64,000 nucleotides of DNA from NCBI GenBank assembly GCA_017409215.1, contig JAFQTD010000023.1, forward strand, positions 1 through 64,000, given 5' to 3'. Position 1 is the first letter of the stretch. Each line of letters begins with the position of its first letter. A program made the position numbers and the translations under genes. Under the pieces are notes generated by a model, which was not told where the DNA came from, did not search any database, and saw only the letters and a list, made by a program, of their open reading frames with translations. The DNA is from Alphaproteobacteria bacterium (GTDB taxonomy: Bacteria > Pseudomonadota > Alphaproteobacteria > Rs-D84). This document shows, one piece after another, positions 1-23,182 of the stretch.

Positions 1-32
1 CCACAAAGCGCGCCTGAAGAGGCGTAAAAAAA

Positions 33-140
33 TCCAACACATCGGTTGGAGTGTGGTGAATATATTGAATAAGCCCACTATTCGTCTTGATAGTCTTTGA
101 ACTCCAACCGCTTTTGATTTTTCTGGGCGGTTTTTGTTTT
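33..140 (+). promoter_or_regulatory. Attenuator-like leader (copy A, 5' end outside window)
   Basis: Four segments can pair in mutually exclusive ways. Segment a (33-38, TCCAAC) pairs with b (45-50, GTTGGA). Segment b, extended to 43-52, pairs perfectly over 10 bp with c (101-110). The end of c (106-111, AACCGC) pairs with d (127-132, GCGGTT), which is followed by TTTGTTTT and so forms an intrinsic terminator. A Shine-Dalgarno and ATG follow within 25 nt. The same layout occurs at 12574-12818 and 19207-19394 on the other strand. The pairings are seen directly; regulation by attenuation is inferred. Confidence 0.6.
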
Positions 141-11281: not shown

Positions 11282-12298
11282 TTATTTCCATACGGTTGGC
11301 ATCGTGGAATAATCAGACAATTTGGTTGCGCTAAAGTACATATCGCCAACCTGAGATGATGTGGCACTGGGCCAGATTTCATACAGGTATTGCCCATTTA
11401 TACGCGCAGATGGACCGGTTAAGGATCTACAGTTATAGAATGTTCGGTAGAACATATAACTCTGTGCCGTACCAGAAATATTACCAAACAGGTTTTCTGG
11501 GATTGATGTTAATTTACTGCAACCATAAAAGGTGTCGCGGAACATACTAGCTGCTGGTGCGCCAGATATGCCCGCGAATAAGTCAGATGGTATTGAACCG
11601 GTCATATTAGTTGCATTACAAAAAGTCTGATAAAATCGTGGTTGTTTTTGTGTGCCACTGCTGAGTGTTCCAAATATCGCCCCCAGCGAGCCATCAATCG
11701 ATGCGATTTTTTTTATGTTGGTTTCTTTCGCACTTGTGTTAGAACCGACATAAAAACTTATCGCAGCGGTGGATGTGCCGGTATAATATGCCGTTGCCTG
11801 ACCACTGAGGCCGATTGTGTATGCATCGGCAGTGGCATAATCATGCGTATATGTTGTGTTTGTTGTGTCGGCTTTTGTGATTGTTTCAACTGTGCCATCG
11901 CCCCAGTCAACATAGAATTTACCGGCCGCACTGATTGAAAAACTAAAACTGTTGGTTGAGGTGGTTGTCAGGGTGAATTCTGGCCCCTTATCAATTTTCC
12001 GCACCAATGTTTCCACCGCCTGATTCGTGGCGACTGTGTCGGCGGCCTGAAGTGTCGCAAATTCGCCATTACCATAGTCCGTTGTCTTTTCACCATTTAA
12101 AATTTCATTCGCAACATCAATCGCCGTCAGCAGGTATTTCATATTGGCAACATGCATTGGGCTGTCTGCCTTAATCGGTATACTGATATCCCATTCTTGG
12201 GCAATTAATTTATGTATATAATCAATATTTACAATTTGTGCTGCATGCGCACAGAAAACTGTAAAACATCCTATCACAGCAAATAATATACGTCGCAT
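11282..12298 (-). CDS. Secreted BspA/DUF285-like surface protein with PKD-like segment
   Basis: Exported protein of 338 aa. The start at 12298 gives signal peptide MRRILFAVIGCFTVFCAHAA and is preceded by GGGGGT; longer frames upstream run through the preceding gene. A PKD-like strand FYVDWGDGTVETI followed by TYTHDYATADAYTIGLSG is clear. After it come repeats of the type MFRDTFYGCSKLTSIPENLF and MFYRTFYNCRSLTGP, as in BspA-like/DUF285 leucine-rich surface proteins of host-associated microbes. The role is probably in adhesion or surface display. It lies 16 nt after a small exported protein and shares its attenuator-like leader. Confidence 0.75.
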   Translation of the reverse strand: MRRILFAVIGCFTVFCAHAAQIVNIDYIHKLIAQEWDISIPIKADSPMHVANMKYLLTAIDVANEILNGEKTTDYGNGEFATLQAADTVATNQAVETLVRKIDKGPEFTLTTTSTNSFSFSISAAGKFYVDWGDGTVETITKADTTNTTYTHDYATADAYTIGLSGQATAYYTGTSTAAISFYVGSNTSAKETNIKKIASIDGSLGAIFGTLSSGTQKQPRFYQTFCNATNMTGSIPSDLFAGISGAPAASMFRDTFYGCSKLTSIPENLFGNISGTAQSYMFYRTFYNCRSLTGPSARINGQYLYEIWPSATSSQVGDMYFSATKLSDYSTMPTVWK

Positions 12299-12314
12299 AT
12301 TTACCCCCAAAAAA

Positions 12315-12551
12315 TTATTCTGCCGTTGGTAATGTTGGTGTTGGCGCATACATTGCACCAGTGACCGTATAAGTCCCCGCCATTGTTTGATTGGCGGTTG
12401 CTGATGTGTCGACCTTGGTTGAAACAGAATCGGCAATTTGGTTTGCAACCTGTTGTTGCACATATGCGGTTGATGGGATGTTCGCCAATGCGGGCGCCAC
12501 AGTCAACGTCAATATAACCGTTGTGAAAAACTGTATGGTTTTTGATATCAA
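12315..12551 (-). CDS. Small exported protein (78 aa), first gene of surface-protein operon
   Basis: The TTG at 12551 is chosen as start because GGGAGGAG lies 6 nt upstream and because it begins a clean signal peptide (ISKTIQFFTTVILTLTVAPALA). The mature part (IPSTAYVQQQVANQIADS...) is Gln/Thr/Ala-rich, may form a short coiled helix and ends in TPTLPTAE. No family is recognised. It is translated just after the terminator hairpin of leader copy B and 16 nt before the BspA-like gene, so the two are probably regulated together. Confidence 0.6.
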   Translation of the reverse strand: MISKTIQFFTTVILTLTVAPALANIPSTAYVQQQVANQIADSVSTKVDTSATANQTMAGTYTVTGAMYAPTPTLPTAE

Positions 12552-12573
12552 ATTACTCCTCCCTTTGTGTGCA

Positions 12574-12818
12574 AACAAAAAACCGCCACAGGAATTGTAA
12601 GCGGTCGGGGAGTTCACAAATCATAAGCTCGCTGATTCTGCCCGCTTTTAGTGCCTTGCACCTGTTGTATAGCGGACAGCCCCCCGACTATTTCAGTCAG
12701 GGCATACAAAATACAGTGCAAATACGGAAATTTTTAGTTGGATTACGACGCAACTAACCTATTTGCACCGGAGCTTATGGGCTTGTGACAGCCCCGAAAC
12801 CAATTCCCATTGGATTCA
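12574..12818 (-). ncRNA. Structured leader RNA with conserved core (copy B)
   Basis: Transcribed on the minus strand from the promoter at 12825-12854. Helices, by plus coordinates: long-range closure 12771-12779 with 12622-12630 (9 bp); 12760-12768 with 12716-12724 (9 bp); a:b hairpin 12695-12702 with 12681-12689; stem 12672-12679 with 12638-12645, which encloses the core GCUAUACAACAGG (12661-12673) and a small hairpin 12650-12662; segment c (12601-12613) can pair with b or with d (12582-12586). The c:d hairpin plus T-run is a terminator just before the ribosome binding site. Shares core and architecture with 19207-19394. No known riboswitch class is recognised. Confidence 0.7.
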
Positions 12819-12824
12819 TAGAAT

Positions 12825-12854
12825 ACTATAGCATATATTGTAATTTTTGTGCAA
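12825..12854 (-). promoter_or_regulatory. Promoter of leader copy B
   Basis: On the minus strand TTGCAC (12854-12849), an 18-bp spacer and TATAGT (12830-12825); transcription would start near 12818. Confidence 0.5.
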
Positions 12855-18590: not shown

Positions 18591-18791
18591 ATGAAAAAAA
18601 TTATATTTTTACCAGTTGTTTTAGGGTTGACCGCTTGTCAAAAATTTGAAACCATCCGCCCCATGTGGGCGGGTTATTTTTTATATGCATTCCACAACAC
18701 CTCAAACCGTTTGCTGTATTCTTGCGCTGGGTGGGTCAGGAATATGCAGTTTTCGCTGTTATACTTTGTGGCGGCGGTGGTCCAGTTATAG
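18591..18791 (+). CDS. Possible small lipoprotein running through a terminator
   Basis: AAGGGGGT precedes an ATG that starts a good lipoprotein signal, MKKIIFLPVVLGLTAC (lipobox Cys 16). A promoter-like TTGATT (18534-18539), 17 bp, TAGACT (18557-18562) lies upstream. The frame then runs into a strong plus-strand terminator (18656-18682) after only about 22 codons and continues antisense to the end of the PLD gene. The full 66-residue product is therefore doubtful. It may be a truncated lipoprotein gene whose original 3' part was lost. Confidence 0.35.
   Translation: MKKIIFLPVVLGLTACQKFETIRPMWAGYFLYAFHNTSNRLLYSCAGWVRNMQFSLLYFVAAVVQL
18656..18682 (+). terminator. Intrinsic terminator
   Basis: CCGCCC (18656-18661) pairs with GGGCGG (18667-18672) followed by GTTATTTTTTA. 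It points rightward and lies within the putative lipoprotein frame. Confidence 0.7.
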
Positions 18792-19198
18792 GAACCCGTC
18801 ACCATGCGCCGATTATCAAAGACGGCGAATTTGTTGTGTTCAATCTTGTGCCGGTGGTTGGTGCGGACGGGTATGCCGGCGCCCGCCAAATCATCAATCA
18901 TGGACGATTTATGTCCGGACATAGTTCGGTCGGTGACAATTCGCACCCTTGCACCCCGACGGTGGGCGGCGATAATGGCATCGGCAATTTTCGGATTGGT
19001 TATGGAATAAACGGCAATGTCGATTTTATCGGCCCGACCCAGTTCGGCAATTATGCGGTCTTCGCATTCGGTGCCGGGGGTGAAATAAAGCGCCACATCT
19101 GTCGGTGTCATCGTATGGCGTGGTGGCAGTTGCGCCCCGACACCAACCCCAATGGCAAACGCAATCGCAATAACAAAAGTCCATTGTCTGACAAACAT
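18674..19198 (-). CDS. Exported single-HKD phospholipase D-like nuclease
   Basis: Protein of 174 aa with an N-terminal hydrophobic export or anchor segment (about 7-22). The single PLD domain has IDIAVYSITNPKIADAII, RIVTDR and the catalytic motif HNKFAVFDNRRMVTGSYNW (HxKx4D). This matches Nuc-type endonucleases of the PLD superfamily, which work as dimers and cleave DNA or phospholipid. A close paralogue with a longer N-terminus lies in the island at 50430-51512; the two share the strings FTPG, IDIAVYSITN and TGSYNWT. The start codon lies only 9 nt from the T-run of leader copy C, so expression is probably controlled by that RNA. Confidence 0.82.
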   Translation of the reverse strand: MFVRQWTFVIAIAFAIGVGVGAQLPPRHTMTPTDVALYFTPGTECEDRIIAELGRADKIDIAVYSITNPKIADAIIAAHRRGARVRIVTDRTMSGHKSSMIDDLAGAGIPVRTNHRHKIEHNKFAVFDNRRMVTGSYNWTTAATKYNSENCIFLTHPAQEYSKRFEVLWNAYKK

Positions 19199-19206
19199 AC
19201 AACCCC

Positions 19207-19394
19207 AAACAAAAGACCACTCAATGAAAGAGTGGTCGGGAGTTAGTCAGTTTACACAGAAACTCCGTTGCCTTTGGGACAAGCCCTGTTGTATAGCAAC
19301 GACATCCCGACCAGGGTCGGGACATTAAAAGCTTCGCTGTGTAGGGGTGACTAAACCCGTTCACGCTTATAATGCCTTGTGCAATTACTTGCAC
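19207..19394 (-). ncRNA. Structured leader RNA with conserved core (copy C)
   Basis: Minus-strand leader of the PLD-like gene. Helices by plus coordinates: 19348-19354 with 19243-19249 and 19337-19343 with 19253-19259 (long-range closure, 7+7 bp); a (19315-19322) with b (19305-19312); stem 19296-19301 with 19266-19271 enclosing the core GCUAUACAACAGG (19285-19297) and an internal GGG/CCC hairpin; b with c (19234-19241, 8 bp); c with d as terminator 19230-19237/19215-19222 followed by TTTTGTTT. The core sequence is identical to copy B while the surrounding stems differ in sequence but not in pairing. Confidence 0.7.
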
Positions 19395-19400
19395 ACATAT

Positions 19401-19428
19401 ATTCTACACCATTTCCCACAAAAATCAA
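19401..19428 (-). promoter_or_regulatory. Promoter of leader copy C
   Basis: On the minus strand TTGATT (19428-19423), 16-bp spacer, TAGAAT (19406-19401); start expected near 19394. Confidence 0.5.
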
Positions 19429-21230: not shown

Positions 21231-21306
21231 TGGCTCGGGCAGTTGGACTCGAACCAACGACATACGGATTAACAGTCCGTTGTTCTACCGACTGAACTAT
21301 GCCCGA
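21231..21306 (-). tRNA. tRNA-Asn (GTT)
   Basis: Minus-strand cloverleaf: acceptor TCGGGCA/TGCCCGA, D-arm GTTCAGTCGGTAGAAC, anticodon loop CTGTTAA with anticodon GTT, T-arm GTTGG-TTCGAGT-CCAAC, discriminator G and encoded CCA. It marks the left neighbour of the mobile island. Its 3' end points away from the integrase, so it is not a classic tRNA 3'-end attachment site. Confidence 0.95.
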
Positions 21307-21685
21307 ATAGCGTTGCTTATAATATACTAAAAAAACCCAGAAGTCAAGACCTTTTAGAAGATTTTTATTGTGTCTCACATGTTCCGGAAATCCGCCAGAA
21401 TCTGGGAATTTTACCAAGTTTGGTATAAAAATGTATGTTTTTCAAACTATGTCCTCACAGGTTCTAACAAGTTGAAACAGTGCCTTTTCCTGAAAAATAT
21501 CAAATCAGGTTGTATGTGACTTACTGCTGTTTTCAACATTGATTTCAAGGCCAAAGTCAAGCACACAATCAACGACAAATTTGCACTTTTTACCAGAGTT
21601 GTATTTTTTGCGATGTATTGCTATCGAAACCAGAGAATACACACCCTATCCTAGGGACATACATAGCAAACAAAAGGAGTAAGGC
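21307..21685. other. Gene-free spacer containing the probable left island boundary
   Basis: About 380 nt between tRNA-Asn and the excisionase gene with no convincing gene. An attachment core could be here but no repeat partner exists in the window. AAAGGAG near 21675 is the ribosome binding site of the next gene. Confidence 0.4.
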
Positions 21686-21880
21686 ATGTATGAACAGGAT
21701 AAACTGATGGATTGTAATGAATTAGCGAAGTACCTGGGGGTTACACCCGACACACTGGGGGTATATAGAACCAAGGGAGTTGGTCCCAAATATATCAAGA
21801 TAGGCAGAGTTATCAGGTACAGAGTTGGTGACGTAAGGGATTGGTTGGACCAAAAAGCTAGAACAAAAACTTTTATGTAA
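21686..21880 (+). CDS. Excisionase/AlpA-like helix-turn-helix protein
   Basis: Small DNA-binding protein (64 aa) of the HTH_17/excisionase group: MDCNELAKYLGVTPDTLGVYRTKGVGPKYIKIGRVIRYRVGDVRDWLDQ, the standard MerR-like winged helix with the 'GP.YIKIG..IRY...DV..WL' signature. AAAGGAG precedes the ATG. Its place 75 nt before the integrase gene suggests a recombination directionality factor or regulator of excision. A second protein of the same family lies at 37410-37643. Confidence 0.8.
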   Translation: MYEQDKLMDCNELAKYLGVTPDTLGVYRTKGVGPKYIKIGRVIRYRVGDVRDWLDQKARTKTFM

Positions 21881-21886
21881 GCGGTA

Positions 21887-21956
21887 TGTCTATTTCACTG
21901 GATATTATTCTTTTTATCGCCATTGTTGTGTGTAAACAACACAAGAGGTAAACAAA
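21887..21956 (+). repeat. Leader segment duplicated before two genes (copy 1)
   Basis: Starts TGTCTATTTCACTGGA (21887-21902) and ends in AGAGGTAAACAAATGG at the integrase start. A related segment begins TGTCTATTTCGCTGGA (23220-23235) and ends in AGAGGTAAAAACAATGG at the gene starting 23297, with TGTTGTGTGTA in the middle of both. Probably a duplicated promoter/leader giving common control. Confidence 0.6.
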
Positions 21957-23182
21957 TGGGAAAAATATGGAAATGTGAAAAACGATTGTTCAAGGACCAC
22001 TGGATAAAGAACATTCGTTCAACGCATAAACTTCAAATCACCGATGGTTCAGTTCCTGGACTGTATATGAGGTATTCACCAACAACAAAGCTGGTGACAT
22101 TCTTCCTGGCTTGTCTGATAAGATCAACCGGCGAAAGAAAGAACATCTACCTGGGCAGATATACAGAGTATGAAACAGTTGAAGATGTTAAGAAAAAAGC
22201 AAGGGTCCTGAGAGAACAAATTCTATTGGGAGGAAACCCAATGGCTCAGATCAAAGAAGAAGTAAAAAAACAAGTAATCAAAGAAAGCAAAAAACACACA
22301 TACAAAGAACTATTCCAGATGTACATAACTAAGTACGCAAAAGTATATAAGAAAGAACGAACAGTAAAGTCAAATGAAGACCAAAGCCGCTTATACATAG
22401 AACCAATCCTTGGGGATATGTATGTGGACGAGATAGAAGAGCAGCACGTGTTAGATGCATACCCAGTATGGGTCGAAAAAACATCGTTCTCTACTGCAAA
22501 CAAGGTCCTGTCATTGCTGTCAAGTTTCTGGGATTGGTGTGAAAGTTACAAGTATCTGCCACGTGACAGCAATCCATGTAAGTACGTCAGAAAAGGTAAA
22601 ACGCAAACAGTATGCAAGAAAACAACCCTGGACATAGACGGATACAAGGGATTGTTTGCAGCACTAGAACGTGGACCGATAGAAACAGACATGCATGAGA
22701 AATACTTCCGGATCATAAAATTGCTGGCATTAACAGGGTGTCGCAGTTCAGAAATCCGCTGTCTGAAAGTCAGAGAGGTAGACCTAGAACATAAGGTCCT
22801 GCACCTTGAAGACAGTAAGACAGGTGCAAGGGATGTTAAGTTGCCTGATTTGGCGATAAAAGAATTAGAAATTGCGCTGGCAGAGGCAAAAATGATAGGC
22901 AGCGAATATGTGTTCTCCAGCCGAGGGAACATCTTCCAAGGTGTACAGGATATACGTAAGCCATTCCAATGGGCTCTCAAGAAAGCTGGCCTGCCACAGA
23001 TGAGAATCCACGACCTGCGCCATTCATTCATCACTATGGGGGCTAACACAGGACAGAACATGGTCGCCATGCGAGATGCAGCAGGACACAGCCGGATCAC
23101 CACGACCGAGGGATACACCCATCTGGCCGATGAACAGACTTTCATCGCAGTGAACAATATTGCCAATGCAATATGTGCATAA
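21956..23182 (+). CDS. int: Tyrosine recombinase / phage integrase
   Basis: Site-specific recombinase of 408 aa for integration and excision of the island. An N-terminal arm-binding/SAM-like region (IRSTHKLQITDGSVPGLYMRYSP, typical of P4-type DUF4102 integrases) is followed by a core-binding domain and the catalytic domain. Catalytic residues are Arg263 (TGCRSSEIR), His352 and Arg355 (HDLRH), His378 (GHSR) and Tyr387 (EGYTHL). The start at 21956 is set by AAGAGGT; a longer frame begins at 21923. A terminator follows at 23192. Confidence 0.93.
   Translation: MGKIWKCEKRLFKDHWIKNIRSTHKLQITDGSVPGLYMRYSPTTKLVTFFLACLIRSTGERKNIYLGRYTEYETVEDVKKKARVLREQILLGGNPMAQIKEEVKKQVIKESKKHTYKELFQMYITKYAKVYKKERTVKSNEDQSRLYIEPILGDMYVDEIEEQHVLDAYPVWVEKTSFSTANKVLSLLSSFWDWCESYKYLPRDSNPCKYVRKGKTQTVCKKTTLDIDGYKGLFAALERGPIETDMHEKYFRIIKLLALTGCRSSEIRCLKVREVDLEHKVLHLEDSKTGARDVKLPDLAIKELEIALAEAKMIGSEYVFSSRGNIFQGVQDIRKPFQWALKKAGLPQMRIHDLRHSFITMGANTGQNMVAMRDAAGHSRITTTEGYTHLADEQTFIAVNNIANAICA

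Follow-up and report, generated by a model that had tools for sequence, protein, structure and literature searches.

The window, by which we mean the whole 64,000-nucleotide stretch of DNA that was analysed, carries two structured leaders on its minus strand, each lying just before a gene for an exported protein. The first, leader B, precedes an operon that opens with a small secreted protein.

12825-12830, minus strand: -10-like box TATAGT, assigned from sequence; TATAAT-like boxes occupy the equivalent site in other copies
12818-12576, minus strand: leader B, whole element
12796-12817, minus strand: 5′ hairpin P1, GAAUCCAA..UUGGUUUC, common to most copies
12779-12795, minus strand: hairpin P2, GGGGCUGUCACAAGCCC, with segment b1 (UCACAA, 12783-12788) in its loop
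12771-12779, minus strand: segment a1, CAUAAGCUC, complement of a′
12716-12769, minus strand: hairpin P4, GGUGCAAAUA..UAUUUGCAC
12696-12702, minus strand: 5′ strand of P5, CCCUGAC (predicted anti-antiterminator), pairing with the middle strand
12680-12688, minus strand: middle strand GUCGGGGGG, with the 5′ strand of P5 and the 3′ strand as alternative partners
12638-12679, minus strand: P6 stem with the conserved core GCUAUACAACAGG (12661-12673), an inner hairpin and AAAG; aligns to Rfam family RF02221
12614-12630, minus strand: segments a′, GAGCUUAUG (12622-12630), and b′, UUGUGA (12614-12619)
12604-12612, minus strand: 3′ strand CUCCCCGAC, forming helix P9 with the middle strand and overlapping the terminator
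12576-12605, minus strand: predicted intrinsic terminator ACCGCU..GGCGGU-UUUUUU
12315-12551, minus strand: first gene, a 78-aa secreted protein (LISKTIQFF..ANIPSTAYVQQQ) with a TTG start and GGAGG at 12558-12562
11282-12298, minus strand: second gene of the operon, a signal-peptide protein (MRRILFAVIG..), its start chosen inside ORF 11282-12463

Leader C has the following parts.

19401-19406, minus strand: -10-like box TAGAAT
19394-19211, minus strand: leader C, whole element
19344-19358, minus strand: hairpin P2, GGGUUUAGUCACCCC, with b1 UUAGUCA (19348-19354)
19337-19342, minus strand: a1, ACACAG
19305-19322, minus strand: P5, UCCCGACC/GGUCGGGA
19266-19301, minus strand: P6, CGUUGC/GCAACG, with the core (19285-19297)
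19243-19259, minus strand: a′ CUGUGU and b′ UGACUAA
19211-19241, minus strand: 3′ strand UCCCGACC, overlapping the predicted terminator GACCACUC/GAGUGGUC-UUUU
18674-19198, minus strand: gene for an exported PLD-like nuclease domain protein of 174 aa

The window also contains a third, divergent copy.

31-136, plus strand: AATCCAAC..GGTTGGAG..CTCCAACC, core AATATATTGAATAA

From the positions of the -10-like boxes, the transcripts of leaders B and C would be expected to start near 12818 and near 19394, respectively. PLDc_2 (PF13091) had a single match in the scanned protein set, which was assigned to the gene after leader C from its sequence. The third copy is of the CTCCAACC/GGTTGGAG subtype, has its 5′ end cut by the start of the window and is followed by a 44-aa ORF. 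Elsewhere in the window, a tRNA (21306-21234, minus strand) has a tyrosine-recombinase-like integrase ORF (21923-23182, plus strand) in its vicinity, and 21234-23182 is possibly an integrated element.

Anatomy and covariation of the leaders

An initial annotation of this DNA had proposed that leaders B and C share an identical 13-nt core, and exact copies of GCTATACAACAGG do occur at 12661-12673 and at 19285-19297, the only two in the window. Allowing up to two mismatches gave three matches in the window versus 0.88 expected by chance; in the 1.13-Mb genome the core occurs exactly five times, the fifth occurrence (L005) sitting in unrelated sequence. As the annotation had also described, the stems flanking the core differ in sequence and keep their pairing (CUGUCCGC/GCGGGCAG in B, CGUUGC/GCAACG in C), the small hairpin within the loop is GUGC/GCAC in B versus GGG/CCC in C, and the long-range closing helix is real (CAUAAGCUC/GAGCUUAUG in B, ACACAG/CUGUGU in C). 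Beside the closing helix we found a second long-range helix that had been missed (UCACAA/UUGUGA in B, UUAGUCA/UGACUAA in C). The claimed competition of the terminator with another pairing was recovered in both leaders, with 3 of 10 terminator base pairs in B and 5 of 8 in C clashing with the alternative helix P9. At the level of sequence the terminator thus excludes the alternative helix and stands before the start codon, as in a transcription attenuator.

Eleven copies from the window's genome, found by the core pattern, were aligned (alignment A1) and used to build covariance model R1, with which leader B scored 124.7 bits, leader C 82.5 bits and the third copy 23.1 bits. In these 11 copies, 95.2% of the cells are paired and 10 pairs show double changes versus 3.7 in shuffles; the covariation is well over both shuffled and slid controls. 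A set of 24 diverse copies behaved in the same way (94.1% of cells paired, 13 double-change pairs versus 6.2, and 56 double-change cells versus 15.8). The leaders are a real, abundant RNA family, and their earlier description as structured attenuator leaders is upheld by the many homologues with compensatory changes and by the overlap of the terminator with an alternative helix.

Distribution and gene context

The initial annotation had suggested a covariance model search for homologues with compensatory changes. In such a search, R1 gave 32 matches at E values up to 1 in the window's genome, about 30 of which are credible. It matched 174 of 183 genomes of the family (gut Alphaproteobacteria, relatives of Candidatus Enterousia), with all 13 genera represented, and 184 of 201 genomes in the order. 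Among 385 sampled genomes of the class, 22 were matched, several other families among them; there the layout is alike, with P5 and a terminator ahead of a gene, for example one for a surface protein, a DNA methyltransferase or a glycosyltransferase. When named genomes were scanned with a pattern, the matches came almost only from gut Alphaproteobacteria, including Candidatus Enterousia. Two copies, L146 and L172, lie on contigs labelled Endomicrobiia and Gastranaerophilales. These labels are probably wrong, reflecting a binning or contamination error, because the model score of L172 equals those of L166 and L167, at least the first of which is labelled alphaproteobacterial.

In 103 of 116 loci the start of an ORF (minimum length 50 aa) lies no more than 60 nt from the element end, the median distance being 23 nt. 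By a crude test, 84 of 115 downstream proteins have a signal- or TM-like N-terminus, and Pfam matches downstream of the leaders include glycosyltransferases, outer-membrane barrels and autotransporters, among others. Multi-copy secreted proteins of about 75 aa (IPSTAYVQQQVANQIADSVSTKVDTSATANQTMAGTYTV) stand behind many leaders (12315-12551 in the window, L021, L023, L038, L042). A divergent subtype with the core AATATATTGAATAA and without the inner hairpin (L036, L038, L039, L040, L041, L042) is found mostly upstream of small secreted proteins of the IPSTAYVQQQVANQIADSV family.

Relation to sRNA-Xcc1 and to phage C4 RNA

The initial annotation recognised no known class and took a strong match to a known Rfam family as grounds for refutation; the first of these views does not stand up well, and a match of that kind was only half found. 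At gathering score, an Rfam scan of the window returned two tRNAs only and matched no known riboswitch aptamer family. With relaxed thresholds, RF02221 (sRNA-Xcc1) recurred exactly over the core in many loci, and in about ten of them its three-helix model was matched at full length (1-87 of 87) at E values from 1.6e-5 to 0.8. Leader B scored 28.4 bits, and the best scores in the order were 46.9 bits (L079, E 1.6e-5), 41.1, 40.6 and 40.4 bits. No tested copy attained the gathering score of 53 bits, and because the best score is below it the leaders are not members of RF02221 by Rfam's rule. We then worked in the opposite direction with a second covariance model, R2, which covers the core only and was built solely from 24 of these leaders. 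R2 recognised 17 of 30 independently fetched RF02221 loci in place (E 4e-9 to 2e-3) as well as a second copy in L233, its sole off-target being one reverse-strand match at E 0.14. Because of the relaxed matches over the core and this reciprocal recognition, we conclude from sequence comparison that the leader core is homologous to RF02221, with divergence.

The likeness extends to the whole anatomy. Leaders and sRNA-Xcc1 loci share the outer helix, the P6 stem with its AUACAA core and inner hairpin, and a third hairpin with a′ in its loop followed by b′. Upstream of its core, each leader carries first b1, in a hairpin loop, and then a1, which are complementary to the core segments b′ and a′, and in RF02221 loci of other Proteobacteria an upstream hairpin loop and its adjoining strand likewise complement the loop of the third hairpin and the segment after it. 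We evaluated these address segments as chains of exact matches, with a threshold of at least 12 nt, against partners swapped between loci. The leader's own a1/b1-a′/b′ reached the threshold in 107 of 125 leaders of the order versus 8.6% of swapped pairs, and in 28 of 30 RF02221 loci versus 9.7%. All 26 copies examined in the window's genome have their own a1/b1, of 11-18 nt and in 26 different combinations. A genome-wide search for trans targets, carried out for B, found its combined a1/b1 target pattern exactly in its own leader alone.

The RF02221 loci differ from the leaders in what surrounds the core. Those examined have no evident 5′ strand of P5 and no 3′ terminator, and many of them have instead a terminator-like hairpin before the core and a third complement, a2/b2, at the ribosome binding site (RBS) of an antirepressor, Rha or SymE gene. 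In 17 of 30 RF02221 loci, versus 3.5% of swapped pairs, this a2/b2 falls around the Shine-Dalgarno sequence of the gene downstream. Near the downstream RBS in the order it was found in 19 of 125 leaders versus 5.8%, mostly as A-rich matches and with no convincing third copy, and in a duplex-energy test on the downstream RBS swapped partners scored nearly as well as the leader's own. RBS sequestration by a2/b2 was rejected for the leaders of the order on the weak excess and the A-rich matches. The terminator-like hairpin is frequent between a1 and the core in L213-L242 (CCGCACCCGNCAG..TGCGGTATTTTTGTGCC) and resembles that of phage P1; P4 of leader B occupies the position of this hairpin in RF02221 loci and in P1. 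A CRISPR array of about 20 repeats adjoins the RF02221 copy in L227.

Phages silence their own antirepressor genes with antisense RNAs. The C4 RNA, a processed RNA of about 77 nt that acts in trans, uses a2/b2 at the icd/ant RBS to prevent translation. The annotated order in phage P1 is a1, b1, c4 RNA, a2, b2 and icd/ant; Rfam's C4 and c4-a1b1 families both match the P1 sequence, and its hairpin and U-run between a1/b1 and c4 are by eye very similar to those of RF02221 loci. Like C4 and c4-a1b1 of P1/P7 (RF01695, RF03163), the leaders present a promoter, a1/b1 and a hairpin with a U-run, next a core RNA with a′/b′ partly in a hairpin loop, and then a gene. Unlike the P1/P7 loci they lack a2/b2, and the C4 core sequence is unmatched by R2. 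The genes after the leaders are, by Pfam, not antirepressors, whereas antirepressors follow many RF02221 loci, where the downstream genes include Bro-N, Rha, P22_AR_N, KilA-N and SymE proteins. RF01695 (C4) and RF02944 (c4-2) matched none of the scanned loci of the order. On sequence, RF02221 loci and P1 C4 have a common organisation; since R2 does not match the P1 sequence, their common descent is no more than likely.

Two further phage systems, IsrK of Gifsy-1 and the CI RNA of satellite phage P4, are similar in layout, with a leader RNA whose own segments complement each other, an early terminator that is read through, and antirepressor or replication genes downstream. In its short form IsrK acts in trans to activate the read-through transcript; P4 CI RNA pairs with seqA and seqC, up- and downstream, and so brings about termination (PMC4825925). 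These loci occur once per phage element, unlike the some 30 chromosomal surface-gene leaders described here. By analogy, the RF02221 hairpin between a1 and the core suggests a short a1/b1 RNA as in IsrK. Papers on sRNA-Xcc1 treat it as an integron-linked or virulence sRNA (PMC2996969, PMC12444791, PMC12189769); a link to C4-type organisation was not found in the accessible sRNA-Xcc1 literature. We regard the leaders as a variant of the C4/sRNA-Xcc1 kind that would be new in its use as a terminator-based leader, an assignment that is strong for the anatomy and predicted for the regulation.

The strand switch, a proposed mechanism and its alternatives

In the leaders of the order, the strand 5′ of the core resembles the 3′ strand, and the middle strand is able to pair with either. 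All three strands visibly change together in the divergent copies L036, L038 and L040-L042. P5 has at least 6 bp in 115 of 131 loci, the helix of middle and 3′ strands overlaps the terminator stem by at least 2 nt in 124 of 131, and at least two terminator pairs clash with the alternative helix in 123 of 125 leaders. In 85 of 117 whole leaders, the minimum-energy fold combined the a1:a′ helix with P5 and the terminator. For the core taken by itself, the median energy difference between the two states is 2.8 kcal/mol; forcing P9 in the whole leader cost a median of 14.7 kcal/mol with the address helix lost. These energies strongly favour the OFF fold described below and, as the calculation cannot treat pseudoknots, do not show that the ON fold can be reached, which counts against the mechanism proposed here.

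The reading that we favour, with a probability of about 0.6, is that an antisense module of the C4/sRNA-Xcc1 type has been recruited in these leaders as an attenuator of transcription in cis, each gene having a private a/b address. The sequences themselves show the pairings and how they covary, the overlaps, where the family occurs in genomes, which genes follow it and how it relates to RF02221; that the terminator works, which of the two folds is ON and what would trigger a change between them are inferred. The transcript would open with the two short address segments, b1 in the loop of P2 and then a1, followed by the core RNA with their complements a′ and b′ and by the intrinsic terminator just 5′ of the start codon. 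In the proposed OFF fold, a1/b1 on a′/b′ would close a domain holding P4, P5 and P6; the middle strand would be held in P5, so that the terminal GACC of the 3′ strand is free, and the terminator would form. In the ON fold, the middle and 3′ strands would form P9, the outer helix that defines sRNA-Xcc1; this would take 2-5 nt of the terminator stem so that polymerase reads through. Which fold forms would hinge on the cis pairing of a1/b1 with a′/b′, which is either made or captured, be it by another RNA (the core RNA released from the locus itself would be one candidate) or by a factor that binds the conserved core. The energies predict that the address helix keeps the leader in a terminating fold, and capture of a1/b1 or a′/b′ would therefore favour read-through. 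The precedents of IsrK and P4 CI act both ways, and either direction may apply to the leaders. For the window, leader B probably decides whether transcription stops before the surface-protein gene.

Base pairing alone does not explain the conservation of UAUACAACA/AAAG, the internal loop of P6, which could be a protein or ligand site and keeps both of the corresponding models alive. An RNA chaperone or antiterminator acting on this core, with the terminator as its output, would account for one core in some 30 leaders per genome amid variable surroundings, which suits one trans factor for surface genes. The private a/b pair of every copy would then be superfluous and the factor itself is only hypothetical, and we consider protein control unlikely, although it is the best placed of the alternatives. 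Less probable than this is that the leaders are still trans-acting antisense RNAs, in which a core RNA of about 90 nt is cut out to silence or activate other mRNAs and the terminator merely ends the sRNA. The size would agree with sRNA-Xcc1, which RACE mapped as an 88-nt RNA (PMC2996969), and the a2/b2 of RF02221 loci fits the same role, but the weak, A-rich a2/b2 matches of the order and the restriction of B's exact target pattern to its own a1/b1 argue against it.

The initial annotation had offered a riboswitch or a protein-binding attenuator, and its attenuator pattern holds, whereas nothing indicates a small-molecule ligand. A metabolite riboswitch would have its ligand pocket in the internal loop of P6, with the a1/b1-a′/b′ helices as scaffold only. 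Conservation of the core beyond the needs of pairing, the many copies per genome and an attenuator platform 3′ of the core are all compatible with such an RNA, which we nonetheless rank below trans antisense action, as the targets (secreted proteins, outer-membrane barrels, glycosyltransferases, autotransporters) have no common pathway and the same core precedes phage antirepressor genes in other Proteobacteria, with a third complement at the RBS there. A c-di-GMP riboswitch was rejected, since the genome encodes no GGDEF protein. Several copies are indeed found close to the ends of contigs and upstream of genes that resemble one another, but the compensatory changes, the presence in nearly all genomes of the family and the placement of leaders close before ORFs leave non-functional mobile-element repeats or chance resemblance with next to no probability.

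A bolder extension of the attenuator reading is that each C4-like leader RNA recognises only its own leader through a private two-part address, giving up to about 30 parallel, mutually orthogonal antisense circuits per genome; we hold this tentatively and would not bet on it. If it were true, phage immunity logic would have become a gene-specific on/off system for surface proteins. The orphan family sRNA-Xcc1 gains an anatomy and a likely logic, with a1/b1 upstream, a′/b′ internal and, where phage antirepressor genes follow, a2/b2 at the RBS, an arrangement shared with P1 C4. The same module appears to have been recruited many times as a terminator-based surface-gene leader across a whole order of gut bacteria, and RNA-based control of surface proteins is thereby directly testable with compensatory mutants.

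Some relatives (L083, L093, L095, L103) have no separate terminator hairpin; a short U-rich run comes immediately after their 3′ strand, CUCCCCGCG, and in them the helix of middle and 3′ strands could itself be the terminator, which speaks against the proposed switch.
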